A stretch of 64,000 nucleotides of DNA, taken from the NCBI GenBank assembly GCA_026027325.1, contig JAMSLZ010000002.1:1364001-1428000 (forward strand). The letters are read 5' to 3'. Positions 665 through 39,485 of this stretch are shown here, piece by piece; the stretch's first letter is position 1, and every line of letters begins with the position of its first letter. The DNA comes from Actinomucor elegans. Taxonomy: Eukaryota > Mucoromycota > Mucoromycetes > Mucorales > Mucoraceae. Position numbers and translations under genes: made by a program. A model generated the notes under the pieces. The model made no database searches, was not told the DNA's origin, and saw nothing but the letters and a program-made list of their open reading frames with translations.

Positions 665-1074
665 TGTCAGTCTTGCAGATGGCAAAGATGTTTACTTTTT
701 AATAATAGAAAATCACGTGTTTTGAAATCACGCAGCCAATAGAATAATTGAATGTAACTTGAGGTAAGTACAGGACTTGGAAATATTTTATAAGATAAGA
801 GATAATGTTTATTTTGATGTGTTCTAAAAGCTATTTATACTATTTTGAATGTTATATGTTTGTTATAAATCATATGTTAAATTATACAATATATGACGAT
901 AAAAATGCTTAATAATATATATATCATTGTGAATAGCGTGATAAACTTTATATGTCTTTTCGTCTCCTGACATTTTGTAAAATCGGTTTGAAATGCCTTT
1001 TCCTCTTTTGTGCCTTTTGGAGTCGTACTTCTAAATGCAGCGGAACGTCTTGCATTAATTCGTCTGGCGCGACA
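665..1074 (-). repeat. 3' LTR of the complete Ty3/gypsy element
   Basis: 410 bp, matching 6127-6536. The sense strand starts TGTCGCGCCAGACG and ends CTGCAAGACTGACA. A TATAAATAG box lies at 831-839 (sense strand). Pol reads into this LTR and stops at 948. Confidence 0.9.
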
Positions 1075-5153: not shown

Positions 5154-5155
5154 AT

Positions 5156-6064
5156 TTACTGAAAATCCTGGCGTCTTTGTGCATGTTGTTCATCCAGTCT
5201 TCGGATGTCAGCCAAACGCAATTTGCAGTTTCTCTTCATATGACCGGATTTTTGACAATAATAACATTTACCACCACTGTTACCACTTTGTTGTCTGTTA
5301 TTGTTAGAGTAGTATTTTGGTCCATTAATACTGCCATTAGAGCCGCCAGCAAATCTTTTCCCAGTTGAATAACCACGACGTTGATCCAGAGCATCCAATT
5401 CCATAGGGTCGTCCACGCGTCCTCGCACACCACTAACACCACCTTGTGTCGGCTGTCCATAGAAATTGAATTGTTGCCGAGCACTGTCAAATGACAATGC
5501 TGATTGGATTGCAGCCTTGAGCGTTTCAGCCTCATATTGTCGAATATGCGCGCGCATATCTTCATTGTTCAAACCTCGAATGAATTTGTCGCATGCCTCC
5601 TCATCAGTCATTTTTGGGATAGCCAGTTTAATATCCATAAAGTTATTGATATAGTCAACCAAATCCCCGGTTTGTTTCAATACAGCTAAGCGATCCCGAG
5701 CAATTCTCACTGAATTGTCTGGGCGAAAGAATTCAATCAACAGTCTCTTGAATTCTAACCATGTGGTAGGTGCATCATCTGTATTTTCGATAGTGCGGAA
5801 CCACGCGTCGGCTCTGCCTCTCAGCAAGGTTGTACCTAAAAGGCAAGTTCTTCCAGAGTCCCATTGGTAGAAAGCAGCGTATCTTTCTACAGATCGAATC
5901 CACCCGTCGATCAGTAGAGCATCCCTAGTACCATCATATGTGTTGGGTTCCTTAATTCTTGCCTGCTTGTTTTCTGTCAGGGCGCTTGTCAATTGTTTAA
6001 TGAGTTCAGCCATGTCTCCTGCATTGCTGTTATTGCTTCTCGGTTCTCCTTGACCGTTGTTCAT
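5156..6064 (-). CDS. gag: Gag of the complete Ty3/gypsy element
   Basis: A 302-aa protein starting at an ATG 43 bp downstream (in sense) of the primer-binding site. The middle part resembles a retrotransposon capsid domain (W-x-x-W-x-F motifs and DALLIDGWIRSVERY, about residues 50-170). A CCHC zinc knuckle, CYYC-x4-GHMKRNC, is near residues 267-280, with a basic glycine/asparagine-rich stretch before it. It ends with TAA two bases before the first usable pol codon. Role: particle assembly and RNA binding in the cytoplasm. Intact. Confidence 0.9.
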   Translation of the reverse strand: MNNGQGEPRSNNSNAGDMAELIKQLTSALTENKQARIKEPNTYDGTRDALLIDGWIRSVERYAAFYQWDSGRTCLLGTTLLRGRADAWFRTIENTDDAPTTWLEFKRLLIEFFRPDNSVRIARDRLAVLKQTGDLVDYINNFMDIKLAIPKMTDEEACDKFIRGLNNEDMRAHIRQYEAETLKAAIQSALSFDSARQQFNFYGQPTQGGVSGVRGRVDDPMELDALDQRRGYSTGKRFAGGSNGSINGPKYYSNNNRQQSGNSGGKCYYCQKSGHMKRNCKLRLADIRRLDEQHAQRRQDFQ

Positions 6065-6107
6065 GATAAATTACTTGTCACCAGCTATAATTTCTTGTTT
6101 GCTTCAC

Positions 6108-6124
6108 GAATTCTGGTGCTACCA
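6108..6124 (-). promoter_or_regulatory. Primer-binding site
   Basis: Sense TGGTAGCACCAGAATTC begins two bases after the LTR end, standard for tRNA-primed minus-strand synthesis. The cognate tRNA is not assigned. Confidence 0.7.
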
Positions 6125-6126
6125 AA

Positions 6127-6536
6127 TGTCAGTCTTGCAGATGGCAAAGATGTTTACTTTTTAATAATAGAAAATCACGTGTTTTGAAATCACGCAGCCA
6201 ATAGAATAATTGAATGTAACTTGAGGTAAGTACAGGACTTGGAAATATTTTATAAGATAAGAGATAATGTTTATTTTGATGTGTTCTAAAAGCTATTTAT
6301 ACTATTTTGAATGTTATATGTTTGTTATAAATCATATGTTAAATTATACAATATATGACGATAAAAATGCTTAATAATATATATATCATTGTGAATAGCG
6401 TGATAAACTTTATATGTCTTTTCGTCTCCTGACATTTTGTAAAATCGGTTTGAAATGCCTTTTCCTCTTTTGTGCCTTTTGGAGTCGTACTTCTAAATGC
6501 AGCGGAACGTCTTGCATTAATTCGTCTGGCGCGACA
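6127..6536 (-). repeat. 5' LTR of the complete Ty3/gypsy element
   Basis: 410 bp, identical by eye to 665-1074. It supplies the promoter in sense orientation. It also carries a copy of the last 127 bp of pol. Confidence 0.9.
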
Positions 6537-6586
6537 TTTTATTGCATGTTGCATTTGGTTATTACCGCTTTTTCATTCACAATTTC

Positions 6587-6619
6587 CACTGCAACTAATA
6601 CCTACTTTTACGGCCGTAA
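6587..6619 (+). repeat. Left TIR of CACTA 1
   Basis: Begins CACTGCAACTAATACC and ends in the palindromic TTTTACGGCCGTAA; pairs with 25525-25557 with three mismatches. The preceding TTC is the TSD. Confidence 0.85.
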
Positions 6620-6637
6620 TATATTGGTATTATTATG

Positions 6638-6939
6638 TGCGGTAAAATTAAAATATAAAAGCAGGTAGTAAGTCGATTATAACTTGGTTATAGTTTATTC
6701 AACTTAAATGTGATTAGTTCTTTCTAACTAGTTTTTCTAGCTTGTATTTATACTCGTTGAATTGTGACTGAAGGTTATTTACTTGTGTTCATATAAGAAG
6801 TATAAGAAGGACGTATCTCTGTTTAAGGACTGTATCGCTGTATAAGGTAATCAATGATGCTTTAGTATGTATGTGCTACAGCTAGGGCGCACAGGCCTCT
6901 AGTCTGTCTGTACTTCAATTATGTGGCTATTTCACCACA
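6638..6939 (-). repeat. 3' LTR of chromovirus copy 1
   Basis: 302 bp, sense TGTGGTGAAATAG...TTTTACCGCA. In sense it is preceded by the purine-rich AGTGGGGGAGCA, the likely polypurine tract. Confidence 0.93.
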
Positions 6940-7200
6940 TGCTCCCCCACTAGAGTCAGTGCACACTGAGTCGACATTAGTAAAGAATAACAAGAAGTTG
7001 TATCTACGTGTTATGTTGTTTTTTGTTCTCCAGTGATTCAATTTTACCAGGTTTATTTTTACTGTAGTATGATATCAACTGCTGAGATACAATTTCCAAG
7101 GCATAACTGCGTGACAGTATATTATTATATTTTTTGTTTAGTTTTGTATATTGACCGGGCAAGTGAGAACTTAAAATGTTTCTTTCACTGTTGCGTGTCA

Positions 7201-10200
7201 TTACTTCCTGCTTCTTTTACTACGTCTAGTCTGTGATATGGGATGATTTAAATCAGTTACCTCACCAGTTCGCATTCTCTTATTATTCGACACATTATCA
7301 GATTTTTGATCAGTAATTGTGTTCTTAGTTGGTGATTTGGTATGAGTTTTCTTTTGGTAAGTGTCTTTCAACCTTTCCTTTGCTAATCGCTTTGACTGTC
7401 TAACCTTTTCCCAATACTTTTCGATAGTGACAGGAGACGAAAATGCATCAACTGAGATCCAGTCATTTTCTCGTTCACCATAGCCTACCCATTTTACAAG
7501 ATATAACCTTTGGCCATTTTCATCTTTATGGTCTCGTATCTCCTCGACTTCAAACAGTTCTTCTTCTATAGCAGATTCGTCAATAGATACGACTTTGAGT
7601 TCTGAGGGTACATATTCACGATGTAATAGTTCATTCGACTCGTCCTTCAATACATAGGTGCCAGCACGTGTCTTTCGAACTACAGTATATGGCCCATCAT
7701 ATAGAGGCGATAACGATGTTGGTCGACCACCTTGTAATTTGACCATTACAGGAGTGTCTATTGGGATATCAATAATGCGATGCTTCTTGTTGAAATCCTC
7801 ATTGTACTTTTCGACGATCTTACGTGTTCTCTCTTCAACAGCAGGAAATACAACGTCAGCCATGTAATCAGCTCTCTTTACCAGTTCTTTTACTGATACA
7901 GGATTCTTTTTGCCCTTCATTTTAGGATCATGATTTGTGCTCAAGTCTACTTGTCTAGCAAACATTAACGAAAATGGTGTACTAGCAGTGCGATCTCTTA
8001 CTTTGATATTGCAGCATAATTGTACAAGTCCTAGCCTTTCGTCCCAGTTACTTGTATCATTACCACAAAGTTTCCGCAGTGTGTTTTTCACCATCTGCAC
8101 GGATCTCTCAGCAGCACCATTGGATTGAGGATAATAAGGTGTAGAGAATCGGTGCTGGATGCCCAAGGTATTGGTTAATGTATGCATCAATCCGTTCCTG
8201 AATTCCCTTCCGTTATCGCTACCAATGATGTCAGGTAATCCATAGTCAGCAAAGATATTAATCAAAGCTTTAGCTACGGTATCACTTTGTTTGTTGGGTA
8301 TAGGTCTAGTGATAATATATTTGGTGCAAATATCGACAAGTACTAGCCCATATATGTTACCAGCCTCAGTTACAGGAAGTGGTCCAAAGAGATCCATTGT
8401 TACATGACTGAATGGTTCGAATGCAACTATAGATTTTTGTGGATTGAAACCCTTCTTGGATACATTGTGAAGTGCACATTCTTTGCAGCGTGAAAGGATA
8501 TCTTTGCAGTCAGCGTAGATGGTATTCCAATGTAACCCCTGGTAAGTGTGGATGTGCTTTACTACACTCTCAATACCGAAATGTCCAAGTGCATGTGCAT
8601 CGTGGATGATTTGATCTCTCTCGTGGGCTGGAGGACAAGCATACTCTGTTCCTTTAGATTTGAAGTCTTTACTATTAAGCTTCACCGCGAGGATGTTCAA
8701 ACGTTTATCTTTCGAGTAGATCTTCTTTTTATGAATAAATCTATCTTTGTCATTGTTAGATGAAGCTCTTCTTAGTAAGATGTATTTCTCTAATCGTTTA
8801 ATATTGCGATCCTGCTCCCCCTCCAGCGTTTGATCTTCAATAATAGGAGGGTAAACGCGAGATAGTGCATCAGGTAGTTTATTGGCAATGCCTTTTAAGT
8901 GAACTACATTCAGATTGAATTGTCCAATAACATCCATATAAGATTGTAATGTACTGTTCAACGTGGTAGACGTGAACATGTAAGTAAGAGCCATATGATC
9001 AGTGAGCACCTCGATAGGTAATGGATGCCCCCATAGCAAAGGTCTAAATCTGATCAATCCGAATACAATTGCAGCAGTTTCGCGTCTATTGGTGGACCAA
9101 TTGCGCTCAGCCGAATTGAGAGACTTGCTAATGAAAGCAATGTGTACAGTTCTATTAAATTCATCTCTTTGAGTGAGTGCACAAGCTATCCCATATACAG
9201 ATGCGTCTGTCTCCAGATAAAATTTCTTGGATAGATCAGGCTGGTGAAGCACGGCATTAGACACAAGAATCTGTTTAATCCGATTGAATCGATCAGTATG
9301 TAAAGACGTCCATTTGGTTTGTACATCCTTATCATTACGTAGTTGATCTAAAGGTGCAGCTACTTTACTAAGCATAGGACAGTAATCCCTTAAATGAGAA
9401 ATCACACCCATAATACTTCGTACTTGTGCAGCGTTTTTAGGAATTGGCCATTTATCAATGTTTGAAAGTCGTCTGTGATCGATCTTTGTAATGCCAGGTC
9501 CAACAATAAAGCCCAATAAATATAATGCCGTTCGAAACCATGTGCATTTGTCGGGATTGATCTTTAAATTTACAGAAGTCAATCTTTCGAGCACTGTGTT
9601 TATCAATTTAATATGTTCTTCTATCGTTTCACTATAGAGTACACAATCATCTACATATGTTTCTACTCCTTCTAAGTCTCCCAAGAGGATGTTCATAACC
9701 CTGCAGTATTGGCTTGTAAGAAAGCTTAATCCGAAGGGCGCGTGGCACCATTTGTAGTTTATATGATTATAAGAGAATGATAATACTTCTCTACTAGCCT
9801 CATCAACAGCGAAAGAGTAATAAGCCTGTTTGAGATCAATTTTAGACATGATTTTTGCCTTTTTTGAGACTCTATCGAAGATCTCAGTAATTTTTGGTAC
9901 AGCAAAATTTTCTTGTAAGTCTTCTGAAATAGATGCGTTGATTTTTCTCAAATCACAACAAATGCGTAGCTTTGTGAGTTTGTCATTTTCATCCTTTTTA
10001 GGTACAGCTAATAATGGTGAATGAAATCTAGCGCTAGGCTTGGATTTTTCAACTATACCGTTGTCCAACCACTCTTTGAGTTGTTTCTCTATTTCTGCTT
10101 TCGCATGAACAGGTAATGGGTATTGTCTTACATAGCAATTAGCGCCACTTTTCATCGGAATCTTCACAATTGATTCAGGTATAGTGCATACCGCTTTAGG

Positions 10201-12312
10201 TTTTATAGTAGCATTTTTGTTAATTGAAGCCTGAATCATTTTCATATACTCTTTTCTTTGTTCAGTGTTTCCATATAGTGCATTGTCAGGGTCATAATGC
10301 TTGTCATTATCGAAGTTAACGTTTTCAAACTGTTTACTTTCTTTTGCAATGTCATTAGGCCAGTTAAAAGCAACGCCTCCAAGATAGATATTCATCTTTG
10401 GTAATATATCAGTACCTAAGAGTACGTCAAATTCAGTTTCCATAACGTCACTAAATTCTACGACTTCAAAAGCATGTTTAAAGGATATATTATTTGTGTA
10501 TGTAACAGTCATAGGTCGTGTTTTACCGATCCTTTTAGCTTTACTATTTTTGCCTTCGTTATTGAGTGCTAAAAAATTTAGATAACCATTCACTTTGTTT
10601 ATGTGTATATCAGAAAAGTCTTTATTCAATATCTTTTTATTAATACAAGCTACATCACTCCCGCTATCCACCTTGGCAACGAGTCTACGACCCTCTATAT
10701 AAATGGGTGTCATTAGATTAAATGTACTTCTTGTATTATGTGATTTATCATCATCGAACTTACAATCATAGTTGAGGTCTTCCATCGCCTCTTTGACCTT
10801 CTTATCTTCGTCTTCCTCCGAGACCAGAGTGTCAGCACGAATTGCAAGAACTGAGGGACCAGGATGGTTAGCCCTCATGGCTTGTCTGTATTCTTGGCAA
10901 GAATGCCCTCTGAACCAAGGCTTCTTGCAAAAACGGCAGGGATTGTTACCGTTTGCCCTTAAAGGTGCATTGTTATTCCCCAAAAATGTAAATGGTCTAG
11001 ACCCAGATGGTGTCATAGATCCAGCACGACCAGAAGAAGAAGAGGACGAAGAAGCGTGCTTGGCAATGCTGAAACAGTTGCGTTCATCATGGTTGGATAG
11101 CTTACCACCATGGCGAGGGCAGTAGAAACGATCAATCGTGGACGCAGAAGTGGGACTGGTGGTACGTTTGTGATGATAAAAATCTTCAGCCTTACGTTTG
11201 CCTTTGTTGATGTTATGTGAGCCTTGAGGCGAGGCCATATCAGCGCCGAAACCACCCTTGGATCTTGACAAACCATTTTCATTGGCTAATGAACCAGGGA
11301 CTTGTTGGCCATACACATTGAGAGCAGCTGCAGCGATATCACTTACAATCCAAGTAGTAGAGTTCTTGCCATTAGAATGCAATACTGTATTAATTGCGGG
11401 TTGCCAAGCTTGGGGAAGTGCATACATAAAAGCATCAGCAATGGTATTGTCAAACTTGCTGTAGCCTGCTTCACTTGCAGCACGAGTAAATCTCAAGTTG
11501 AATGAGTTGATTGTTTCATTGGTGCGAATACGCATATTCATCACCAAACGCCTAGCATCCAGTTTGTCTTGAGCCCCACCAAAGGTATCCAAGAATACTT
11601 TTCGAGCCGTTTCCCAAGTATCTTGTACAAGCAAATCACCTTTCATCCATACGTCATAATCCATAGCTAGAGTACCTTGAATGTACTGCTTCCAAGTGCG
11701 TTCAACATCATTGCCAGTTGAAATAAGAGTCTTTTCAAATGTGCGTAAAAAGTGTTCTACTGAGTTGTATACCGTTTCGCCTGGGTAGTAAACAGTATCA
11801 CCAGTCAGTTGGAACTTGGGCAGATCTCTGGGAGCCAAACGCATGAGGATAGTAGTATCACCGTTATTAGTAGCAGGAGCTCTCTCCGTGGGCATGGCTT
11901 CGGATACAGCTTTGTGGATTTGAATTTTCCTGTTGGCGGTCACCATTACATCGATATGCTTATTGTAGGTATCGATGCACTTGATCAGCCTTTCCATTTC
12001 ACGGTCATACGCCTCGGGATCATTACCAAGAAGTTCAGCACCATCAGAGATGAGGAGACTAGCATATCTCTGAGAAGCTACAGTTCGGCGATCCATTAAA
12101 ATATTGATAGCTAGATCACCAATGGGCCCCTTTTCCTCTTTATGATCCTCAGACATAGCCATGACTGATTCAGTAGTCTTAGCCTGACTAAGTTCGGATA
12201 CGTTACCAGTTTCAATACCTTCCATAGTTTCTTCAGCAGCACAAGTAGCAGTGGGAGTATTAGCCAGAAGGTCAGGTACAGTAACCGGAGTGGTAGAGTT
12301 GTTTTGAGACAT
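7201..12312 (-). CDS. Gag-Pol polyprotein with C-terminal chromodomain (copy 1)
   Basis: 1,703 aa in one frame. Gag covers about residues 1-500 with a knuckle-like C-x2-C-x7-H-x-C (CRFCKKPWFRGHSC) near 458-471. Aspartic protease VDSGSD is near 548, reverse transcriptase YVDD near 886, then RNase H. Integrase acidic residues are near 1305 (MDLFGP), 1365 (GSDNGREF) and 1399 (AAERS). A chromodomain (VEEIRDHK...YLVKWVGYGERENDWI) is at about 1587-1635, followed by a basic tail. Chromodomains in this class direct integration to marked chromatin. The translation is the same as copy 2. No stop or frameshift: probably active. There is no separate Gag stop, so the Gag/Pol ratio must be set after translation. 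Confidence 0.95.
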   Translation of the reverse strand: MSQNNSTTPVTVPDLLANTPTATCAAEETMEGIETGNVSELSQAKTTESVMAMSEDHKEEKGPIGDLAINILMDRRTVASQRYASLLISDGAELLGNDPEAYDREMERLIKCIDTYNKHIDVMVTANRKIQIHKAVSEAMPTERAPATNNGDTTILMRLAPRDLPKFQLTGDTVYYPGETVYNSVEHFLRTFEKTLISTGNDVERTWKQYIQGTLAMDYDVWMKGDLLVQDTWETARKVFLDTFGGAQDKLDARRLVMNMRIRTNETINSFNLRFTRAASEAGYSKFDNTIADAFMYALPQAWQPAINTVLHSNGKNSTTWIVSDIAAAALNVYGQQVPGSLANENGLSRSKGGFGADMASPQGSHNINKGKRKAEDFYHHKRTTSPTSASTIDRFYCPRHGGKLSNHDERNCFSIAKHASSSSSSSGRAGSMTPSGSRPFTFLGNNNAPLRANGNNPCRFCKKPWFRGHSCQEYRQAMRANHPGPSVLAIRADTLVSEEDEDKKVKEAMEDLNYDCKFDDDKSHNTRSTFNLMTPIYIEGRRLVAKVDSGSDVACINKKILNKDFSDIHINKVNGYLNFLALNNEGKNSKAKRIGKTRPMTVTYTNNISFKHAFEVVEFSDVMETEFDVLLGTDILPKMNIYLGGVAFNWPNDIAKESKQFENVNFDNDKHYDPDNALYGNTEQRKEYMKMIQASINKNATIKPKAVCTIPESIVKIPMKSGANCYVRQYPLPVHAKAEIEKQLKEWLDNGIVEKSKPSARFHSPLLAVPKKDENDKLTKLRICCDLRKINASISEDLQENFAVPKITEIFDRVSKKAKIMSKIDLKQAYYSFAVDEASREVLSFSYNHINYKWCHAPFGLSFLTSQYCRVMNILLGDLEGVETYVDDCVLYSETIEEHIKLINTVLERLTSVNLKINPDKCTWFRTALYLLGFIVGPGITKIDHRRLSNIDKWPIPKNAAQVRSIMGVISHLRDYCPMLSKVAAPLDQLRNDKDVQTKWTSLHTDRFNRIKQILVSNAVLHQPDLSKKFYLETDASVYGIACALTQRDEFNRTVHIAFISKSLNSAERNWSTNRRETAAIVFGLIRFRPLLWGHPLPIEVLTDHMALTYMFTSTTLNSTLQSYMDVIGQFNLNVVHLKGIANKLPDALSRVYPPIIEDQTLEGEQDRNIKRLEKYILLRRASSNNDKDRFIHKKKIYSKDKRLNILAVKLNSKDFKSKGTEYACPPAHERDQIIHDAHALGHFGIESVVKHIHTYQGLHWNTIYADCKDILSRCKECALHNVSKKGFNPQKSIVAFEPFSHVTMDLFGPLPVTEAGNIYGLVLVDICTKYIITRPIPNKQSDTVAKALINIFADYGLPDIIGSDNGREFRNGLMHTLTNTLGIQHRFSTPYYPQSNGAAERSVQMVKNTLRKLCGNDTSNWDERLGLVQLCCNIKVRDRTASTPFSLMFARQVDLSTNHDPKMKGKKNPVSVKELVKRADYMADVVFPAVEERTRKIVEKYNEDFNKKHRIIDIPIDTPVMVKLQGGRPTSLSPLYDGPYTVVRKTRAGTYVLKDESNELLHREYVPSELKVVSIDESAIEEELFEVEEIRDHKDENGQRLYLVKWVGYGERENDWISVDAFSSPVTIEKYWEKVRQSKRLAKERLKDTYQKKTHTKSPTKNTITDQKSDNVSNNKRMRTGEVTDLNHPISQTRRSKRSRK

Positions 12313-12342
12313 AGTGTAGTTGTTAAGTTTAATCGAAAAAAA

Positions 12343-12644
12343 TGCGGTAAAATTAAAATATAAAAGCAGGTAGTAAGTCGATTATAACTTGGTTATAGTT
12401 TATTCAACTTAAATGTGATTAGTTCTTTCTAACTAGTTTTTCTAGCTTGTATTTATACTCGTTGAATTGTGACTGAAGGTTATTTACTTGTGTTCATATA
12501 AGAAGTATAAGAAGGACGTATCTCTGTTTAAGGACTGTATCGCTGTATAAGGTAATCAATGATGCTTTAGTATGTATGTGCTACAGCTAGGGCGCACAGG
12601 CCTCTAGTCTGTCTGTACTTCAATTATGTGGCTATTTCACCACA
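12343..12644 (-). repeat. 5' LTR of chromovirus copy 1
   Basis: 302 bp, same as 6638-6939. Only 30 bp separate it from the start codon at 12312, and no TGG primer-binding site follows its end. Confidence 0.93.
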
Positions 12645-12649
12645 CTGCG

Positions 12650-14869
12650 TACAAACCAACAAAATGCCATAACCAGTTGACAGTTCTTTCATCTGGTGGC
12701 AATTTACAACCAAAAAAAGAATACATTTACAACTCGGTAAAACTTACTCTTGAGCGCTTTTTCTCTCGTCCTCATTTTACATCTGCAATTGAAAACTGGA
12801 GAAGTCGAACAACAATCAAAGACAGTTTGTTTGATGTATTTGACGGCAATTACTGGAGCAACTTCAAGAAGGATGGTCTCCCTTTTGTTCTTCAACCTGG
12901 ATCACTCATGCTTTCACTTAATGTCGATTGGTTTTCACCCACCAAGACGATGAATTATTCTGTTGGAGCCATTTACCTTATTGTAAATAACCTCCCTCGA
13001 GCAGAAAGGTTTCGCAGAGAGAATCTGATTCTTGTTGGGATCATGCCTGGGCCAAAGGAACCTGAGTTGGATTCAATTAATCATTTTTTAAAACCAATGG
13101 TTGATGAATTACTTGTGTTGTTTGAAGGTATGATTTTGAGTGATGGTAGGTCTGTTCGTGCAGCATTGATGTCGGTAAACTGTGACCTTCCGGCCGTAAA
13201 GAAGGTTTGTGGTTTTACTGCCTTCAATTCGTTCATTCCTTGTCATAAATGCTCGGATCGTTATCTTGGTCAGTCTGGTCGTCCACAAGCTCGCGATTTA
13301 TCAAACCTCGATGATCTTACTTGGAATCGAAGAGATGGGCAATCAAACAGGCAGCAAGCATTGAAATGGAAGGAAGCATTAACAACTGGTGATAGAAAGC
13401 GCTTAGAACAAATGTACGGTACACGGTATAGCGAGCTCCATCGTTTGGAGTATTTTGATCTGATCAGATGCACAACAGTGGATGCTTTGCATAACCTGTA
13501 CTTAGGCACAGCAAAGCGGATGATGGATTGGTGGAAAAAGACTGTCAATCCAGTTACTCGTCAAGTTTACTTATCTGACGCAGACTTTCGTGTAATGGCA
13601 GCAAGAGCCAAGAATATTGCAGTGCCCCCGCAGTTTACACCGATTGCTCACAAAATTGCTTCTGGGTTCGTTGGAATGAAAGGCGATGAATGGCGAAGTT
13701 GGGTTTTCGTGTATTCTGGTTTACTTTTAAAAGGTAAGATCACTGGTGATGCATTGACTAGTTGGATGAAATTTGTGAAAGCAAATCAAATTCTAGGTGG
13801 GCCCTCCATCACAAATGCACAAATTGACGAAGCTCATAAGTTTTTGAAAGAATTTGGTCAGGAATGTTCGGTTATCTACGGTGCCAACATTATCTCACCT
13901 AATTTCCATTTACACCTGCACCTAAAGGAAACGATACGTGACTTTGGTCCTATCTATTCGACCTGGTTGTATGGCATGGAAAGAGCTAATGGTGATATCA
14001 AAGATGTCAATACCAATTTCAAGCAAGGATTAGAAGCGACCTTCATGAAGAAATACTTGCAGCATGTTCATGCCCAAGATTATATCAAAGGCTTTTCTGC
14101 TCGAATATTTAACAACCCAATCATGATGAATGTTCTCTCTTCTCTTTTGCCTGGTATTGCTGATTCTTTGGATAATGATGAAGATAGTCTTGGAACTGAT
14201 TTGAGTAGTAATACTCAACGCTTTGATTTGGCTACTTTTATTAGTCATTCAACTGATGACGCACGTCTTGTCACAGGTTCTGAACCTCTTCCTCCGTCTT
14301 TCTTTTCTCACAAGCATTTCGATCGAAGTGTAGTGATGAACAGCATGCATCATCAGGGCCTTCTTGACTTTTACAAGGACGTCTATTACCGATTAAACTA
14401 CGATGTCGTTCAATACCGTCTTCCTCATCATCGAATTAGATCAACTCTTATAGCAAGTATGAAAATCAAAAAGTTCACTGAAATTAATCTGCTAGGCCAG
14501 CAAATTCGCTCCGTTTCTTCAAGAACCAAACGAGGAATATACATTGAAGCCTTAGTCAATGGTGAATTTCGTGTTGGAAGAGTAGCCTACTTCTTTAGTC
14601 ATGTTGTTGAAATGCCAGTGTATCAAAGATCACAAACTCAAGACGTGACTCATGTATTTGCTTTTGTAGAATGGTTCAAGAAATCGCCTTATTACTTCGA
14701 ATCATTTAACGCCCACTCTGCTTTCGTTTGGCAATCAGCTTTTGAAACCATCGATAAGCATTCCATCTTGCCAGTGCATCGTATTCATACCTGCGTTGCT
14801 ACTGAGCCTTACGTAGAAAACTCAATGATATCCGTCTCTCTCCCAAGAAAGATTGTGAACACCTTTTAG
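12650..14869 (+). pseudogene. C-terminal 739 codons of CACTA 1 tnp2-like transposase, severed from its N-terminus
   Basis: Open from the retrotransposon flank to a stop at 14869, with no intron. Motifs of the tnp2 family: NVDWFSPT (likely first catalytic aspartate), INNLP/VNNLPRAERF, GIMPGP, a CHKCS zinc pair and DALHNLYLGTAKRMM. These form the RNase-H-like catalytic core that cuts CACTA ends in the nucleus. The apparent ATG at 12626 lies inside the chromovirus LTR and is not the true start. The missing N-terminal part is at 23831-24666 on the other strand. Taking the CTGCG/CGCAG duplication once, the exons total 2,856 bp (952 codons), exactly in frame. The cause is a retrotransposon insertion followed by inversion. 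Confidence 0.88.
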
Positions 14870-14939
14870 GCTTTTGTATCAATTATATATATTATTATAT
14901 CCTTTTTCCTATTTTTTTATGCTATATTGCTAATCTTTA

Positions 14940-16331
14940 TTACTGTTGTGATTCAGTGAAAGAGGGAAGAAAAGAAGAAATATCAAACTGGTTACGAGAA
15001 GCAGCAGTTGATGGGCCAGGAGATCCACCTCGAGAAGCACCAGTTGGTGAGCCACTAGATATGCTACGAAAAACAGAAGACTCAAAAGTCATACGAGCCT
15101 CAGGATCCCATCCCCAAGCAGGAAAGGAGGCGTACTTCATCGCTTGATCGTTGAATGGAATATCCTGCTCCATTGTAACACGAGGAAGATGATTACCTCT
15201 CTTTCTCTTCGTTTTTTTGCAGCGAGGATTAATCCAGAGGTCATCTAACTTATCGAAAGCATTATTCAACTAATGAATGCGATGGAAAAAGAGGTATCAC
15301 CGGTTACTAAGGAGTCAATGAAAATAAGGAAAAGCACGCATATACTTACTTTTGCGCTTCTGTACTGAGGTCGTTTACGAATCAGCACTTGTTGGCCTTC
15401 CATGTCTACATCGCTTTCCTCTTCAGACATCATTCCAGCAACCAAAAAGACTGGGAACTGTTTACCATATTCTTTTTCGAAATGCTCTTTGTTCTGAGAG
15501 TACATATCTACTCTATGGCCCAATTTCTATACCAACAAAAGATGAATAACCTCAACATTACTATCACTGCTACTTTACCAATTGAGTACGGGAATTGCAC
15601 CTGTTTCTTTTGGCGTAGGCTTCGCTAACGGAATCAATAACAACTTCATCGTCTTCTCCCAGATCCTTAGCTTTTTTATGCAACCTCGACATATACCAAA
15701 AGCGGTCAGTGATAATCTGTTTCATTGCCCTGGCTGAAATATGGTGTGTTTGGCGATTGTTCTCACCATAGGTTCTCATTTTTGTTCGAACATCTTTGTT
15801 CGGAGGATAGGATAATGATACCTTAAAATCATACTTTTGCGACAAAGTTCCGTAGTAAGAGGTAAGCAAATCCTAGTATCATTAAAATGTTATTTAAAAA
15901 CTTATTAACCTGCTTTTTTTTTCAACATATAACTTTACGCGAAAGAGACGACGGTTTTCAGCTGAGTCTTCTTCCTCATCTCCTACGGTTGAAGAAGAAG
16001 CTGCTTCACCGCGACTGCCAGTACGGGGGCCACCCGTGCGTACGCTCTGGAACGCAGGTTGGGATTCGAGGCTTCCGCCTTCCTCGTAATCGTACAGCGC
16101 CAACGATCTTTCGTGGGCAGCTGTATCCTGCTCCAAGCGAGCAACTTGGCGGGATAGCCCCTCAACAGTGTTGGTGAGCTGGCGGACGGTGCTCAGAAGA
16201 GTTTCGTACTCTTCTCTTGCTATGACAACGGTTTCTGTCATAGGAGTTGACATTAACTCGTTGCTTGGCGGGATAATAGGAGCGCCTACGCGATTGCTGT
16301 TGCTGGTTGATTGCTGGTTATAATGAGACAT
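14940..16331 (-). CDS. CACTA 1 companion protein, four exons, 397 aa
   Basis: Exons 15939-16331, 15579-15872, 15350-15526 and 14940-15269 (393, 294, 177 and 330 bp). All introns are phase 0 with GT...AG ends (66, 52 and 80 bp), and the total is 1,194 bp. N-terminus: serine/asparagine-rich, then a coiled-coil-like segment (about residues 35-75) and an acidic patch. Middle: KMRTYGENNRQ and RFWYMSRLHKKAKDL. C-terminal third: VAGMMSEEESD, then RKRPQYRS, a basic run KKTKRKR (possible nuclear signal) and a serine/glycine-rich tail. No enzyme motif is recognised. It ends 70 bp from the convergent transposase end. By position it is the second gene of the transposon, perhaps a TIR-binding or regulatory subunit; that role is inference. 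Confidence 0.72.
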
Positions 16332-17822
16332 GCTAAAATATTTTTTAATAGTGATTTAAAAAAGGAATGCCTTAAAGAGCTTTTATTATACTTTTGTGCT
16401 GTGCCTGAATTATGCATGTTATTAATCCAATTACTGGTGAGTCTATCTCTACTTAATAGTTACTATTTTTTGATACGTCATCTTTGAGGCTTTTATTTTA
16501 ATAAAATTTTTTCGCTCTTCTCGTGTTTTCTTTTCATTGTAATCCTTACTTTTTTTTTAATTCAAATATATGTACAAATAGCTTTAATCAGTCATTCTCA
16601 TCAAGGTAAAAATTCCTATTAAATCATAGCTTGAAGCATACTTAATCCTCTTTTCTCTCATTAGCAAACTCACAGCTCATTATTTTTTACATGAGCTTTT
16701 TTTTTTTTTATTTTAATGGTAAGAGAAAAAGTTGTAATTACTTCATAAACTGATCGGTTTTTTAGATTCTTCGTTAATCTTAGCTTAACATATCATCTGA
16801 TTGGTATTAATATGCTCGATATATTCCAAATGGTGATTCCGTCTTCTAATGCACTTGCTATATTTTGTATGTATTAAAGCTTTCTTCTTCAACTTTGTTC
16901 TTATATATTCTTCCATTTAGCTGTTAGATTGGTTTGATTGAGTTGCTGCTTCCAGCTGCTATGTTAACTCGAATTATTTTGGTCATAATCTTTATGGTAT
17001 GTATGAATTTCGTTCACGTTCACGTTTAATTAACCTGTGCTGATTTCTTTCATTTACCACTCATTTTTAGGCCGTTTTGATACTTGAACATATGGTAAGC
17101 ACTTAATCTTCTATCCACTCAAAAGCTTGTTTTACTTACATCCATTTTCATTTGTTAGTACTATTCTGCTGAATGCCTACGCAACAATACTTGGTATGTC
17201 TTAACTTCTGACTGGCATTATATAAACACGTTATTCACTTCTCTCTTCTTGATGTTTAGATTTTGCTCATTAAATTATCCTCTTGGTTGAAGTGGCTTCT
17301 CTTTTTGGTCGTTTCTTAATATAATGTCTTTTCGGTTGTGGCTTTCTTTACTCTGATTTCTTCTCTAAAAATGGCGCGTTTTACTACGACAATACTGATT
17401 TGCTGAAGTTAGTTATTTATGGCTATTATATCTGGTACTCTTTCTGGTGGATTATTATTTAGCAATGAATATACAATATTTTTATTCAATAAAAATGTGT
17501 ATAAACCAAAATTATAGTAAAAGATGTAAAATGTGTAATTATAAAATATCGATTATTATTGGCTCAATTTAATGTAAAAGGACCGTAATATATGTAAAAA
17601 TACGGTAAAAGGAGGACTGTTTTACGGTCATTTTCATGGAAATAGTTGAACTTTTACGGCCTTTTACCAATGGAACAGACGAACTTTTACCATACTTTTA
17701 CCAACAGTACTAGTTGAACTTGTCCGGCCGTAAAAGGATGGTAACAGGCGAACACATACCGCGGTAATAGTTGAACTGTTACGGCCGGAATATTTTGGTA
17801 AAAGTACGGTAATATTACATAA
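16332..17822. other. Non-coding CACTA 1 segment with subterminal repeats
   Basis: No ORF of note. From about 17570 to 17822 there are many short repeats in both orientations built on TTTTACGGCCG, GTTGAACTTTTAC and GGTAAAAGTA, typical of transposase-binding subterminal regions. In the ancestral order this block lay next to the left TIR. The CATAA at 17818-17822 is one displaced TSD copy. Confidence 0.65.
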
Positions 17823-18124
17823 TGTGGTGAAATAGCCACATAATTGAAGTACAGACAGACTAGAGGCCTGTGCGCCCTAGCTGTAGCACATACATACTAA
17901 AGCATCATTGATTACCTTATACAGCGATACAGTCCTTAAACAGAGATACGTCCTTCTTATACTTCTTATATGAACACAAGTAAATAACCTTCAGTCACAA
18001 TTCAACGAGTATAAATACAAGCTAGAAAAACTAGTTAGAAAGAACTAATCACATTTAAGTTGAATAAACTATAACCAAGTTATAATCGACTTACTACCTG
18101 CTTTTATATTTTAATTTTACCGCA
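17823..18124 (+). repeat. 5' LTR of chromovirus copy 2
   Basis: 302 bp, TGTGGTGAAATAG...TTTTACCGCA. A TATAAATA promoter box is at 18010-18017 and an AATAAA signal at 18063-18068, so the R region probably starts near 18040. The bases after the LTR (TTTTTTTCGATTAAAC) carry no TGG primer site. Confidence 0.93.
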
Positions 18125-18154
18125 TTTTTTTCGATTAAACTTAACAACTACACT

Positions 18155-21100
18155 ATGTCTCAAAACAACTCTACCACTCCGGTTACTGTACCTGACCTTC
18201 TGGCTAATACTCCCACTGCTACTTGTGCTGCTGAAGAAACTATGGAAGGTATTGAAACTGGTAACGTATCCGAACTTAGTCAGGCTAAGACTACTGAATC
18301 AGTCATGGCTATGTCTGAGGATCATAAAGAGGAAAAGGGGCCCATTGGTGATCTAGCTATCAATATTTTAATGGATCGCCGAACTGTAGCTTCTCAGAGA
18401 TATGCTAGTCTCCTCATCTCTGATGGTGCTGAACTTCTTGGTAATGATCCCGAGGCGTATGACCGTGAAATGGAAAGGCTGATCAAGTGCATCGATACCT
18501 ACAATAAGCATATCGATGTAATGGTGACCGCCAACAGGAAAATTCAAATCCACAAAGCTGTATCCGAAGCCATGCCCACGGAGAGAGCTCCTGCTACTAA
18601 TAACGGTGATACTACTATCCTCATGCGTTTGGCTCCCAGAGATCTGCCCAAGTTCCAACTGACTGGTGATACTGTTTACTACCCAGGCGAAACGGTATAC
18701 AACTCAGTAGAACACTTTTTACGCACATTTGAAAAGACTCTTATTTCAACTGGCAATGATGTTGAACGCACTTGGAAGCAGTACATTCAAGGTACTCTAG
18801 CTATGGATTATGACGTATGGATGAAAGGTGATTTGCTTGTACAAGATACTTGGGAAACGGCTCGAAAAGTATTCTTGGATACCTTTGGTGGGGCTCAAGA
18901 CAAACTGGATGCTAGGCGTTTGGTGATGAATATGCGTATTCGCACCAATGAAACAATCAACTCATTCAACTTGAGATTTACTCGTGCTGCAAGTGAAGCA
19001 GGCTACAGCAAGTTTGACAATACCATTGCTGATGCTTTTATGTATGCACTTCCCCAAGCTTGGCAACCCGCAATTAATACAGTATTGCATTCTAATGGCA
19101 AGAACTCTACTACTTGGATTGTAAGTGATATCGCTGCAGCTGCTCTCAATGTGTATGGCCAACAAGTCCCTGGTTCATTAGCCAATGAAAATGGTTTGTC
19201 AAGATCCAAGGGTGGTTTCGGCGCTGATATGGCCTCGCCTCAAGGCTCACATAACATCAACAAAGGCAAACGTAAGGCTGAAGATTTTTATCATCACAAA
19301 CGTACCACCAGTCCCACTTCTGCGTCCACGATTGATCGTTTCTACTGCCCTCGCCATGGTGGTAAGCTATCCAACCATGATGAACGCAACTGTTTCAGCA
19401 TTGCCAAGCACGCTTCTTCGTCCTCTTCTTCTTCTGGTCGTGCTGGATCTATGACACCATCTGGGTCTAGACCATTTACATTTTTGGGGAATAACAATGC
19501 ACCTTTAAGGGCAAACGGTAACAATCCCTGCCGTTTTTGCAAGAAGCCTTGGTTCAGAGGGCATTCTTGCCAAGAATACAGACAAGCCATGAGGGCTAAC
19601 CATCCTGGTCCCTCAGTTCTTGCAATTCGTGCTGACACTCTGGTCTCGGAGGAAGACGAAGATAAGAAGGTCAAAGAGGCGATGGAAGACCTCAACTATG
19701 ATTGTAAGTTCGATGATGATAAATCACATAATACAAGAAGTACATTTAATCTAATGACACCCATTTATATAGAGGGTCGTAGACTCGTTGCCAAGGTGGA
19801 TAGCGGGAGTGATGTAGCTTGTATTAATAAAAAGATATTGAATAAAGACTTTTCTGATATACACATAAACAAAGTGAATGGTTATCTAAATTTTTTAGCA
19901 CTCAATAACGAAGGCAAAAATAGTAAAGCTAAAAGGATCGGTAAAACACGACCTATGACTGTTACATACACAAATAATATATCCTTTAAACATGCTTTTG
20001 AAGTCGTAGAATTTAGTGACGTTATGGAAACTGAATTTGACGTACTCTTAGGTACTGATATATTACCAAAGATGAATATCTATCTTGGAGGCGTTGCTTT
20101 TAACTGGCCTAATGACATTGCAAAAGAAAGTAAACAGTTTGAAAACGTTAACTTCGATAATGACAAGCATTATGACCCTGACAATGCACTATATGGAAAC
20201 ACTGAACAAAGAAAAGAGTATATGAAAATGATTCAGGCTTCAATTAACAAAAATGCTACTATAAAACCTAAAGCGGTATGCACTATACCTGAATCAATTG
20301 TGAAGATTCCGATGAAAAGTGGCGCTAATTGCTATGTAAGACAATACCCATTACCTGTTCATGCGAAAGCAGAAATAGAGAAACAACTCAAAGAGTGGTT
20401 GGACAACGGTATAGTTGAAAAATCCAAGCCTAGCGCTAGATTTCATTCACCATTATTAGCTGTACCTAAAAAGGATGAAAATGACAAACTCACAAAGCTA
20501 CGCATTTGTTGTGATTTGAGAAAAATCAACGCATCTATTTCAGAAGACTTACAAGAAAATTTTGCTGTACCAAAAATTACTGAGATCTTCGATAGAGTCT
20601 CAAAAAAGGCAAAAATCATGTCTAAAATTGATCTCAAACAGGCTTATTACTCTTTCGCTGTTGATGAGGCTAGTAGAGAAGTATTATCATTCTCTTATAA
20701 TCATATAAACTACAAATGGTGCCACGCGCCCTTCGGATTAAGCTTTCTTACAAGCCAATACTGCAGGGTTATGAACATCCTCTTGGGAGACTTAGAAGGA
20801 GTAGAAACATATGTAGATGATTGTGTACTCTATAGTGAAACGATAGAAGAACATATTAAATTGATAAACACAGTGCTCGAAAGATTGACTTCTGTAAATT
20901 TAAAGATCAATCCCGACAAATGCACATGGTTTCGAACGGCATTATATTTATTGGGCTTTATTGTTGGACCTGGCATTACAAAGATCGATCACAGACGACT
21001 TTCAAACATTGATAAATGGCCAATTCCTAAAAACGCTGCACAAGTACGAAGTATTATGGGTGTGATTTCTCATTTAAGGGATTACTGTCCTATGCTTAGT

Positions 21101-23266
21101 AAAGTAGCTGCACCTTTAGATCAACTACGTAATGATAAGGATGTACAAACCAAATGGACGTCTTTACATACTGATCGATTCAATCGGATTAAACAGATTC
21201 TTGTGTCTAATGCCGTGCTTCACCAGCCTGATCTATCCAAGAAATTTTATCTGGAGACAGACGCATCTGTATATGGGATAGCTTGTGCACTCACTCAAAG
21301 AGATGAATTTAATAGAACTGTACACATTGCTTTCATTAGCAAGTCTCTCAATTCGGCTGAGCGCAATTGGTCCACCAATAGACGCGAAACTGCTGCAATT
21401 GTATTCGGATTGATCAGATTTAGACCTTTGCTATGGGGGCATCCATTACCTATCGAGGTGCTCACTGATCATATGGCTCTTACTTACATGTTCACGTCTA
21501 CCACGTTGAACAGTACATTACAATCTTATATGGATGTTATTGGACAATTCAATCTGAATGTAGTTCACTTAAAAGGCATTGCCAATAAACTACCTGATGC
21601 ACTATCTCGCGTTTACCCTCCTATTATTGAAGATCAAACGCTGGAGGGGGAGCAGGATCGCAATATTAAACGATTAGAGAAATACATCTTACTAAGAAGA
21701 GCTTCATCTAACAATGACAAAGATAGATTTATTCATAAAAAGAAGATCTACTCGAAAGATAAACGTTTGAACATCCTCGCGGTGAAGCTTAATAGTAAAG
21801 ACTTCAAATCTAAAGGAACAGAGTATGCTTGTCCTCCAGCCCACGAGAGAGATCAAATCATCCACGATGCACATGCACTTGGACATTTCGGTATTGAGAG
21901 TGTAGTAAAGCACATCCACACTTACCAGGGGTTACATTGGAATACCATCTACGCTGACTGCAAAGATATCCTTTCACGCTGCAAAGAATGTGCACTTCAC
22001 AATGTATCCAAGAAGGGTTTCAATCCACAAAAATCTATAGTTGCATTCGAACCATTCAGTCATGTAACAATGGATCTCTTTGGACCACTTCCTGTAACTG
22101 AGGCTGGTAACATATATGGGCTAGTACTTGTCGATATTTGCACCAAATATATTATCACTAGACCTATACCCAACAAACAAAGTGATACCGTAGCTAAAGC
22201 TTTGATTAATATCTTTGCTGACTATGGATTACCTGACATCATTGGTAGCGATAACGGAAGGGAATTCAGGAACGGATTGATGCATACATTAACCAATACC
22301 TTGGGCATCCAGCACCGATTCTCTACACCTTATTATCCTCAATCCAATGGTGCTGCTGAGAGATCCGTGCAGATGGTGAAAAACACACTGCGGAAACTTT
22401 GTGGTAATGATACAAGTAACTGGGACGAAAGGCTAGGACTTGTACAATTATGCTGCAATATCAAAGTAAGAGATCGCACTGCTAGTACACCATTTTCGTT
22501 AATGTTTGCTAGACAAGTAGACTTGAGCACAAATCATGATCCTAAAATGAAGGGCAAAAAGAATCCTGTATCAGTAAAAGAACTGGTAAAGAGAGCTGAT
22601 TACATGGCTGACGTTGTATTTCCTGCTGTTGAAGAGAGAACACGTAAGATCGTCGAAAAGTACAATGAGGATTTCAACAAGAAGCATCGCATTATTGATA
22701 TCCCAATAGACACTCCTGTAATGGTCAAATTACAAGGTGGTCGACCAACATCGTTATCGCCTCTATATGATGGGCCATATACTGTAGTTCGAAAGACACG
22801 TGCTGGCACCTATGTATTGAAGGACGAGTCGAATGAACTATTACATCGTGAATATGTACCCTCAGAACTCAAAGTCGTATCTATTGACGAATCTGCTATA
22901 GAAGAAGAACTGTTTGAAGTCGAGGAGATACGAGACCATAAAGATGAAAATGGCCAAAGGTTATATCTTGTAAAATGGGTAGGCTATGGTGAACGAGAAA
23001 ATGACTGGATCTCAGTTGATGCATTTTCGTCTCCTGTCACTATCGAAAAGTATTGGGAAAAGGTTAGACAGTCAAAGCGATTAGCAAAGGAAAGGTTGAA
23101 AGACACTTACCAAAAGAAAACTCATACCAAATCACCAACTAAGAACACAATTACTGATCAAAAATCTGATAATGTGTCGAATAATAAGAGAATGCGAACT
23201 GGTGAGGTAACTGATTTAAATCATCCCATATCACAGACTAGACGTAGTAAAAGAAGCAGGAAGTAA
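18155..23266 (+). CDS. Gag-Pol polyprotein with C-terminal chromodomain (copy 2)
   Basis: Same translation as the protein at 7201-12312: Gag, CCHC-like knuckle, protease, RT (YVDD), RNase H, integrase and chromodomain in one 1,703-aa frame. The ATG is 30 bp after the LTR. It ends TAATGA, and 262 bp of non-coding sequence with a purine tract (AGTGGGGGAGCA) precedes the 3' LTR. Both copies are intact, so either could supply protein. Confidence 0.95.
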   Translation: MSQNNSTTPVTVPDLLANTPTATCAAEETMEGIETGNVSELSQAKTTESVMAMSEDHKEEKGPIGDLAINILMDRRTVASQRYASLLISDGAELLGNDPEAYDREMERLIKCIDTYNKHIDVMVTANRKIQIHKAVSEAMPTERAPATNNGDTTILMRLAPRDLPKFQLTGDTVYYPGETVYNSVEHFLRTFEKTLISTGNDVERTWKQYIQGTLAMDYDVWMKGDLLVQDTWETARKVFLDTFGGAQDKLDARRLVMNMRIRTNETINSFNLRFTRAASEAGYSKFDNTIADAFMYALPQAWQPAINTVLHSNGKNSTTWIVSDIAAAALNVYGQQVPGSLANENGLSRSKGGFGADMASPQGSHNINKGKRKAEDFYHHKRTTSPTSASTIDRFYCPRHGGKLSNHDERNCFSIAKHASSSSSSSGRAGSMTPSGSRPFTFLGNNNAPLRANGNNPCRFCKKPWFRGHSCQEYRQAMRANHPGPSVLAIRADTLVSEEDEDKKVKEAMEDLNYDCKFDDDKSHNTRSTFNLMTPIYIEGRRLVAKVDSGSDVACINKKILNKDFSDIHINKVNGYLNFLALNNEGKNSKAKRIGKTRPMTVTYTNNISFKHAFEVVEFSDVMETEFDVLLGTDILPKMNIYLGGVAFNWPNDIAKESKQFENVNFDNDKHYDPDNALYGNTEQRKEYMKMIQASINKNATIKPKAVCTIPESIVKIPMKSGANCYVRQYPLPVHAKAEIEKQLKEWLDNGIVEKSKPSARFHSPLLAVPKKDENDKLTKLRICCDLRKINASISEDLQENFAVPKITEIFDRVSKKAKIMSKIDLKQAYYSFAVDEASREVLSFSYNHINYKWCHAPFGLSFLTSQYCRVMNILLGDLEGVETYVDDCVLYSETIEEHIKLINTVLERLTSVNLKINPDKCTWFRTALYLLGFIVGPGITKIDHRRLSNIDKWPIPKNAAQVRSIMGVISHLRDYCPMLSKVAAPLDQLRNDKDVQTKWTSLHTDRFNRIKQILVSNAVLHQPDLSKKFYLETDASVYGIACALTQRDEFNRTVHIAFISKSLNSAERNWSTNRRETAAIVFGLIRFRPLLWGHPLPIEVLTDHMALTYMFTSTTLNSTLQSYMDVIGQFNLNVVHLKGIANKLPDALSRVYPPIIEDQTLEGEQDRNIKRLEKYILLRRASSNNDKDRFIHKKKIYSKDKRLNILAVKLNSKDFKSKGTEYACPPAHERDQIIHDAHALGHFGIESVVKHIHTYQGLHWNTIYADCKDILSRCKECALHNVSKKGFNPQKSIVAFEPFSHVTMDLFGPLPVTEAGNIYGLVLVDICTKYIITRPIPNKQSDTVAKALINIFADYGLPDIIGSDNGREFRNGLMHTLTNTLGIQHRFSTPYYPQSNGAAERSVQMVKNTLRKLCGNDTSNWDERLGLVQLCCNIKVRDRTASTPFSLMFARQVDLSTNHDPKMKGKKNPVSVKELVKRADYMADVVFPAVEERTRKIVEKYNEDFNKKHRIIDIPIDTPVMVKLQGGRPTSLSPLYDGPYTVVRKTRAGTYVLKDESNELLHREYVPSELKVVSIDESAIEEELFEVEEIRDHKDENGQRLYLVKWVGYGERENDWISVDAFSSPVTIEKYWEKVRQSKRLAKERLKDTYQKKTHTKSPTKNTITDQKSDNVSNNKRMRTGEVTDLNHPISQTRRSKRSRK

Positions 23267-23528
23267 TGACACGCAACAGTGAAAGAAACATTTTAAGTTC
23301 TCACTTGCCCGGTCAATATACAAAACTAAACAAAAAAATATAATAATATACTGTCACGCAGTTATGCCTTGGAAATTGTATCTCAGCAGTTGATATCATA
23401 CTACAGTAAAAATAAACCTGGTAAAATTGAATCACTGGAGAACAAAAAACAACATAACACGTAGATACAACTTCTTGTTATTCTTTACTAATGTCGACTC
23501 AGTGTGCACTGACTCTAGTGGGGGAGCA

Positions 23529-23830
23529 TGTGGTGAAATAGCCACATAATTGAAGTACAGACAGACTAGAGGCCTGTGCGCCCTAGCTGTAGCACATACA
23601 TACTAAAGCATCATTGATTACCTTATACAGCGATACAGTCCTTAAACAGAGATACGTCCTTCTTATACTTCTTATATGAACACAAGTAAATAACCTTCAG
23701 TCACAATTCAACGAGTATAAATACAAGCTAGAAAAACTAGTTAGAAAGAACTAATCACATTTAAGTTGAATAAACTATAACCAAGTTATAATCGACTTAC
23801 TACCTGCTTTTATATTTTAATTTTACCGCA
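23529..23830 (+). repeat. 3' LTR of chromovirus copy 2
   Basis: 302 bp, same as the 5' LTR. It is followed by CGCAG (23831-23835), which is the TSD partner of CTGCG at 12645-12649. Confidence 0.93.
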
Positions 23831-24666
23831 CGCAGTGATGATCATATTTTCGCAACGTTTAATAGTACGGTGAACGATAACAGCGTCATAATCGTAAATA
23901 CAGTTGCATCTATCGCATACTACGTATGTCCTTACACCTATAATACAACATATTAAAAAAGCTTAGTACTTATATATAAATCAAGAGTATATTTTTCAAA
24001 AACAAATACCTTTGGTGACGAAATCAGCTTCAACAATATTTCTAACGGTAGCAAGCTTGGAAGGGAAGCGGTAAGGCAAGCTTACAAGGATGAATACAGC
24101 GTTGAAAAGCTTGAGGAGCAATTCTGCTGTTGCAATTGATATGCCGTTGTTTTGAAACAATACGAGAAATACAATCAAGAAGTATGGTAAAACAAGTTCT
24201 TCAGTGATATCTACTACTGTTTCTTGTATTTCAACGTCTTCATTTTCTGTCAGATATAACACAACGTTGAATCAGTCAATTGATTTGTACAAAAATCATT
24301 TTTAAGAAACATACCATCAATCAGAGTCTCGCCCTGGCAGTAATCAAAATTTTCAACATTGTCAACTTCAAAGTTGACGTCTTGAATTTCTTCAGTAATA
24401 TCATCATCGTTATCACTAACAAGTTGTTCTTCATTTTCTAGTGATTCCGTTTCATTGGTGGTAATTGCTTCTTCTACAATGACTATAAAGACAATTTGTA
24501 AGTTCGAAACTATGAATAAGCAAGAAAAGAAATATATCTTACTATTCGAAATTGATCGCATTCTATCTTTTCTTGAATGGCGTAATTTAGTTAAAGGAAC
24601 AACCATTCCGAAACCACGCGTAGTTTTAGTACATTCAGTGCATCTGCACACAACTTTCTTTACCAT
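23831..24666 (-). pseudogene. N-terminal exons of CACTA 1 tnp2-like transposase
   Basis: Four exon segments on the minus strand: 24543-24666 (ATG at 24666), 24315-24482, 24010-24246 and 23831-23937. The introns of 60, 68 and 72 bp are all phase 1 with GT...AG ends. The start has a cysteine pair (VCRCTECTK) and a basic stretch; an acidic linker follows; the last segment has VVCDRCNCIYDYD, a zinc-binding pattern that continues as KCHNQL in the severed part at 12650. The frame runs into the CGCAG TSD and resumes in phase at 12650, giving 952 codons in all. Promoter and N-terminus are here; the catalytic part is 9 kb away on the other strand. Confidence 0.85.
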
Positions 24667-25524
24667 TGAAGTATATAAACGTTTGTAATATAGAGAAAAA
24701 CGCTTTTTCGAAAATTGACCCGCCTTTTCTTGTAAATCACGGCAGGTAGTACGAACAATAATTAATATCAGTTACTTTCAATCAGTAATCAAGGAGCAGG
24801 GCAGGATAAAAATAATATTATGCTTTTATTGGCTATTGTTGTTTCAATAATTAGAAGAAAGAATCATTTTTTGGGGGTTTCAAAACTTCAACAAAACTTC
24901 AACAAAAATTCGTTAAATGAAGTTATTTAAGCGATTCTTACAAGTAAAATATTGCAAAGACACAAATAATTGCTTAACAAAAGTTATAGAAAATTTAATT
25001 GTGCATCTAAACATATATATAGCATGCAGAACTTTAGTTGTTAGACGAAGTTATTCTTTTATAAGGCGTTTTTTGTCATTTTTTTTATTAATTCAACCAC
25101 AATTCGCATATTTTATATAAGATACAATTCTCAAAAAATGCAACCAATTTTCATGTGTACATATTATCCTCATAACTACTCTTTAACCATAGAATATAGC
25201 TTTAATGGATAATAGCAGGGTGATACAAACTCATTTATTATAATTTAAAATCAAGGTTAGACCTTACACCAACCCCATTTGTACAGTCCGCTTATAAGTC
25301 GATGTTTTAAGTTGGACTTTAAAGAAACATAAATATGAAAATATATATTTTCTTCAATATCTCCACAACCATTATAGATACAAACTTAAAAAAAAATGGT
25401 AACCACAATAAAAAATCATGCTCATTACGATTATATCATAAAAAGTGAAAAAATCCTAGTATTGGCCTTTATGTGGTAATAGTTGGAGTGTTACAGCCGT
25501 AATAGTCGGACTATTACCATGCTG
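24667..25524. other. Non-coding right arm of CACTA 1
   Basis: Upstream region of the transposase and right subterminal zone. No gene is seen. Near 25475-25530 GGTAATAGTTGGAGTG, GCCGTAATAG and TTACGGCCGTAA repeat the subterminal motifs of the other arm. Confidence 0.6.
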
Positions 25525-25557
25525 TTACGGCCGTAAAAGGAGGTTTTATTTGCAGTG
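25525..25557 (-). repeat. Right TIR of CACTA 1
   Basis: Reverse complement begins CACTGCAAATAAAACC; 30 of 33 positions match the left TIR. Followed by TSD TTC. Confidence 0.85.
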
Positions 25558-26714: not shown

Positions 26715-26734
26715 CACTATGGCGAAAATATTGT

Positions 26735-35030: not shown

Positions 35031-35331
35031 TGTGGTGAAATAGCCACATAATTGAAGTACAGACAGACTAGAGGCCTGTGCGCCCTAGCTGTAGCACATA
35101 CATACTAAAGCATCATTGATTACCTTATACAGCGATACAGTCCTTAAACAGAGATACGTCCTTCTTATACTTCTTATATGAACACAAGTAAATAACCTTC
35201 AGTCACAATTCAACGAGTATAAATACAAGCTAGAAAAACTAGTTAGAAATAACTAATCACATTAAAGTTGAATAAACTATAACCAAGTTATAATCGACTT
35301 ACTACCTGCTTTTATTTTTAATTTTACCGCA
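35031..35331 (+). repeat. Solo LTR of the chromovirus family
   Basis: 301 bp, nearly identical to the 302-bp LTRs at 17823 and elsewhere. Flanked by the 5-bp duplication CATAT (35026-35030, 35332-35336). An internal part was lost by LTR-LTR recombination. Confidence 0.93.
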
Positions 35332-39451: not shown

Positions 39452-39485
39452 TTTTATAATATATTTTGAACATAATTTTATTACT

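Follow-up and report, generated by a model that had tools for sequence, protein, structure and literature searches.

Solo LTRs form by homologous recombination between the direct repeats of a single element, with deletion of the element's interior. Recombination between separate copies of a transposon has been described for inversion 2z3 of Drosophila buzzatii, where, as the cited part of the report presents it, the target duplications of Galileo are exchanged and ectopic recombination was inferred (PMC2775673). Aberrant integration is a second route to rearranged flanks: in the part of the work cited here, aberrant HIV proviruses formed in the presence of drugs or by integrase mutants usually have duplications much larger than 5 bp, or deletions (PMC5041404). 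Here, we describe two LTR retrotransposons of the chromovirus type that lie in opposite orientation in the genome of the fungus Actinomucor elegans, and whose target duplications are exchanged. The analysis covers a stretch of 64,000 nucleotides, referred to as "the window", together with searches of the whole genome.

The chromovirus pair and its host transposon

Both chromoviruses sit within one CACTA (tnp2) transposon whose ends and TTC duplication are intact. Members of the CACTA (EnSpm) family are defined by CACT(A/G) termini and a 3-bp target duplication. The host element spans 6587–25557 (18,971 bases including the insertions), its ends read CACTG…CAGTG, and TTC lies on both sides (6584–6586 and 25558–25560). 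The terminus that starts with CACTG extends on the plus strand from 6587 to 6637, where the first insertion site (site A) is located; it is identical at 51/51 bases in five of seven other matched copies and at 50/51 in the other two. In the genome search with the joined site A (see below), the alignments of other CACTA copies start at 6587 (query position 150). The C-terminal part of the transposase frame (12645–14869, plus strand) matches Transposase_21 with 52.3 bits against a cut-off of 28.6, and is cut off from the preceding part of the coding sequence. That part belongs to the upstream portion of the transposon, at 23836–25557 on the minus strand, which also carries the other terminus (CAGTG at its plus-strand end). 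The best named matches of the transposase are in Mucor saturninus, Rhizopus, and Phycomyces; matches in animals rank lower.

The two chromoviruses code on opposite strands. Copy 1 (6638–12644, minus strand) is 6007 bp long and copy 2 (17823–23830, plus strand) is 6008 bp; pairwise comparison reveals no substitutions and a single 1-base difference in a run of T. All four LTRs are 302 bp long (6638–6939 and 12343–12644 in copy 1; 17823–18124 and 23529–23830 in copy 2), and the two LTRs within each copy do not differ from one another. The polyprotein frames (7204–12381 in copy 1 and 18086–23263 in copy 2) both encode 1726 aa, with Pfam matches to reverse transcriptase, RNase H, the integrase core, and a C-terminal chromodomain (PF00385, residues 1610–1659). 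Neither frame has a Pfam match to gag or protease at E 0.01.

LTRs of this chromovirus family begin with TG and end with CA, and the family has a 5-bp target duplication. Neither copy 1 nor copy 2 has a duplication of its own. The order on the plus strand is TTATG (6633–6637), copy 1, CTGCG (12645–12649), 5.2 kb of CACTA sequence, CATAA (17818–17822), copy 2, and CGCAG (23831–23835). Read in element sense, copy 1 lies between CGCAG and CATAA, and copy 2 between CATAA and CGCAG, such that the four 5-mers make two perfect crosswise pairs: TTATG and CATAA are the outer and inner halves of site A, and CTGCG and CGCAG are the inner and outer halves of the second site (site B). Comparison of the junctions indicates that the segment at 12645–17822 (plus strand) has its order inverted relative to other CACTA copies, with the two homologous, opposite-facing chromoviruses at its two breakpoints, one at each. 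An earlier note on this DNA had reported the same flanks and the two perfect pairs, and reading the flanks bears this out. Its label "chromovirus" agrees with the domain matches in the 1726-aa frames, and its description of the copies as "identical" holds with respect to substitutions but not with respect to the one homopolymer base.

The surroundings are rich in other repeats. Another Ty3-type LTR element (665–6538, coding on the minus strand), with an identical 412-bp repeat at 665–1076 and 6127–6538, stops 48 bp before the start of the host CACTA. A second, different CACTA lies at 26715–34093; its terminal inverted repeat is the 20-bp CACTATGGCGAAAATATTGT, it is flanked by TTT at either end, and it has a tnp2 match at 29917–30861 on the minus strand. 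Further along are a solo LTR (35031–35331) that belongs to the chromovirus family of copies 1 and 2 and has a perfect CATAT duplication, and a diverged relative of the chromovirus (58019–61578), 69–97% identical in pieces, whose frame is broken up into several open stretches. Between them, at 38600–55267, open frames lie within a nest of inverted repeats; those at 38600–39499, 42905–43936, and 54368–55267 match the ISXO2-like DDE_Tnp_IS1595 domain, and the frame at 50133–51203 largely overlaps an arm complementary to 42652–43914. The 3.7-Mb contig that includes the window (C12) has 16 LTR starts among those listed, in three clusters, one near each end and one at 1.37–1.48 Mb. The window falls in this inner cluster, which could be pericentromeric.

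Uninverted junctions in other CACTA copies

To reconstruct each site, the flanks were joined into the arrangement expected before the insertions and the flip, keeping a single copy of each 5-mer, and the joined sequences were searched for in the whole genome. For site B, the site in the transposase, the search gave 11 rows, with 11/11 candidates scored; two rows represent the halves of the site in the window itself. The joined junction is crossed without a break in the nine other places. Eight of these span all 400 bases of the query, five at 100% identity with the top score and three at 99–100%; the ninth covers only 113–400, at 93%. For site A, the terminal site, the search gave 43 rows, with 40/70 candidates scored, and all counts for this site are therefore lower bounds. 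Excluding the two rows that are the window's own halves, the junction is crossed in at least 14 other places. At least nine of these are 95–100% identical over the whole stretch between the CACTA end and the last base of the query, and at least five are partial or more diverged (86% in one case). A short row at 81%, on the opposite strand of one of the fourteen, was left out of the count, and in most of the other rows the match is confined to query positions 1–103, which represent the neighboring LTR rather than the CACTA.

The earlier note had suggested a search for an empty CACTA copy elsewhere in this genome, and such copies exist, with the joined flanks unbroken at both sites. Two CACTA copies (L050 and L051) have exact 60-base junctions at both site A and site B; a third (L054) has an exact junction at site B but not at site A. 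Since the joined junctions are unbroken in other copies, the uninverted order is the norm for this CACTA family, and the copy in the window is the changed one. The uninverted order, with a single copy of each target, is thus seen in paralogous CACTA copies and not at this very locus; the genome search with the joined site B revealed no second, interrupted allele of this site in the assembly. As a separate observation, the window's CACTA has a patch at 17117–17601 that diverges from three other copies, which are themselves close to one another; 21/28 window-specific differences of the inner 5.2 kb fall in this patch.

The coding sequence gives a matching result. Once 12645–17822 is turned round, the minus-strand stretch that starts at 23836 joins 12645 in frame. 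The transposase frame across the joined site B stays open over 42 codons upstream of the site and 741 codons downstream; in the downstream direction, each of the other two frames runs into a stop within 11 codons.

Origin of the inversion

The best explanation, and in our view a very probable one, is that two independent insertions were followed by crossing-over between the inverted copies, which flipped 12645–17822. The CACTA transposon, already bounded by its TTC duplications, would have been the target of one young chromovirus twice, in separate events and with opposite orientations. Insertion A would have taken place 51 bp from one CACTA terminus, at the target TTATG, and insertion B in the transposase coding stretch, at the target CTGCG/CGCAG, with a separate 5-bp duplication arising at each. 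Homologous crossing-over would then have taken place between the 6-kb inverted copies and flipped the intervening 5.2 kb, the product being two hybrid elements with exchanged duplications. Insertions and crossing-over account for every feature of the locus; the two-step order, and homologous recombination in the organism as the mode of exchange, are what we infer. Because the copies differ by only one homopolymer base, the position of the crossover within the 6 kb and the chimerism of the copies are invisible. This history, which the earlier note had called proven, is supported by the swapped flanks, the opposite orientation and near-identity of the copies, the uninverted junctions, the open joined frame, the intact TTC ends, and the matching duplications that prevail elsewhere in the family, but "proven" is too strong a word for it.

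Three alternative explanations differ in how well they survive, and a census of target duplications across the family bears on each of them. Pattern searches identified 127 LTR starts (100 listed) and 97 + 14 LTR ends. We read 105 of the 111 ends (100 fetched and five in the window). Among them, solo LTRs number 53, 5′ LTRs 21, and 3′ LTRs 18, and the other 13 have no recognized start. Complete elements were paired by position, and the count does not include the 13 start-less and seven unpaired LTRs. Flanking 5-mers are identical in 47/53 solo LTRs, with the limit that 105/111 LTR ends were read, and in all 14 complete elements other than the window pair. Mismatches occur in 8/69 scored insertions, namely six solo LTRs and both elements of the window pair; the only reciprocal swap is that of the window pair. 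Solo LTRs are not all independent: three of the 53 (L145, L156, and L159), on three contigs and each ~30 kb or less from a contig end, agree with one another in the 15 bases flanking each side, indicating that they are copies of one duplicated segment.

First, the organism may have normal duplications, with the assembler having reversed 12645–17822 between the identical 6-kb inverted repeats. Such a reversal would yield exactly the observed pattern, the copies are only one T-run base apart, and the CACTA around them is in turn a near-identical repeat. Nonetheless, we consider it unlikely. The same 6-kb repeat is resolved consistently elsewhere, with matching duplications in every one of the 14 other complete elements, meaning that reads apparently span the element; this lowers the risk of a false reversal without removing it, and contigs reach 5.0 Mb. 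None of the 14 control elements belongs to a close inverted pair of complete elements, such that the hardest case is without a control. On balance, the history of two insertions and a flip is strongly supported, with the flip probably in the organism and not merely in the assembly.

Second, two cDNAs, each bridging sites A and B, could have inverted the segment in one event of concerted aberrant integration. The final structure would be the same, identical copies close together would be explained, and faulty retroviral integration can invert adjacent host DNA, according to the cited part of PMC5041404. Against this, both sites here have exact 5-bp duplications, as opposed to the large duplications or deletions that are usual in that account (PMC5041404), and two coordinated errors would be required. 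Moreover, near-identity is no mark of this pair: LTRs are without a difference in 13/14 other complete elements, and youth is general in this chromovirus family. Concerted integration therefore seems very improbable.

Third, the exact duplication is missing in 6/53 solo LTRs, but an accidental crosswise match between two unrelated elements, each deprived of its duplication by mutation or deletion, has next to no likelihood and is rejected, since both uninverted junctions occur elsewhere, unbroken and base for base, which accidental flanks would not give. By base count, two 5-mers would match at random about 1 time in 10^6; among the solo LTRs, the upstream 5-mer of one equals the downstream 5-mer of another in 15/2756 cases, a rate inflated by the three LTRs of the duplicated segment.

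Several other readings were also rejected. Inversion by the CACTA transposase is at odds with the CACTA ends at 6587 and 25557, which are not breakpoints and keep TTC on both sides, and the intact outer ends likewise exclude a larger rearrangement. The arms do not derive from one long inverted duplication: the flanks beyond the elements agree at only 14/30 and 9/30 bases, and tolerant extension of the inverted-repeat arms ran at most 20 bases past the element ends. Finally, the CACTA is not a chimera of two copies, given that its inner and outer parts are both ~99% identical to L050, L051, and L054 (with the patch at 17117–17601 diverged).

Reversible flipping is conceivable, given the near-perfect match between the two 6-kb inverted arms. 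It is a possibility, albeit a doubtful one, that the 5.2-kb segment flips to and fro in growing cultures, with coexisting isomers of which the assembly caught one; if so, the locus would be a natural counter of retrotransposon recombination in a fungus. The flip lies wholly inside the CACTA transposon, and no host gene is therefore expected to be affected.

Comparison with known systems

The locus is an unusually complete record of retrotransposon recombination: a single genome preserves, in readable form, the scars at the targets, a reference for the uninverted order, and the outer boundary. Reciprocal swaps are rare here, with one among the 69 insertions scored in the census, and the same flank test could give the number of such events in other genomes. 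A search of the literature by title and by the start of the abstract found no fungal chromovirus inversion with exchanged duplications, a result that extends to those parts of the publications and is not a claim of absence in print.

Solo-LTR formation has in common with the proposed exchange that homologous recombination acts between identical sequences of the same family, and it has been frequent here (53 solo LTRs among 105 LTR ends). The difference is that two whole inverted elements would have recombined at this locus, with nothing lost. Aberrant retroviral integration, as presented in the cited part of PMC5041404, shares the potential to invert adjacent host DNA; in the window, however, exact 5-bp duplications are kept at both sites.

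The closest parallel is Galileo 2z3, with which the window pair shares opposite-facing copies at the breakpoints, exchanged duplications, and single targets in the uninverted arrangement, as far as the cited part of that report describes them (PMC2775673). Galileo belongs to the DNA transposons and has duplications of 7 bp; its copies, which are chimeric, are at the breakpoints of a chromosomal inversion (PMC2775673, same part). The window, by contrast, has LTR retrotransposons with 5-bp duplications and a 5.2-kb flip inside another transposon, and chimerism between its near-identical copies is invisible. The process itself is thus known, and the window pair is a clean further case of it, involving a retrotransposon in a fungus.
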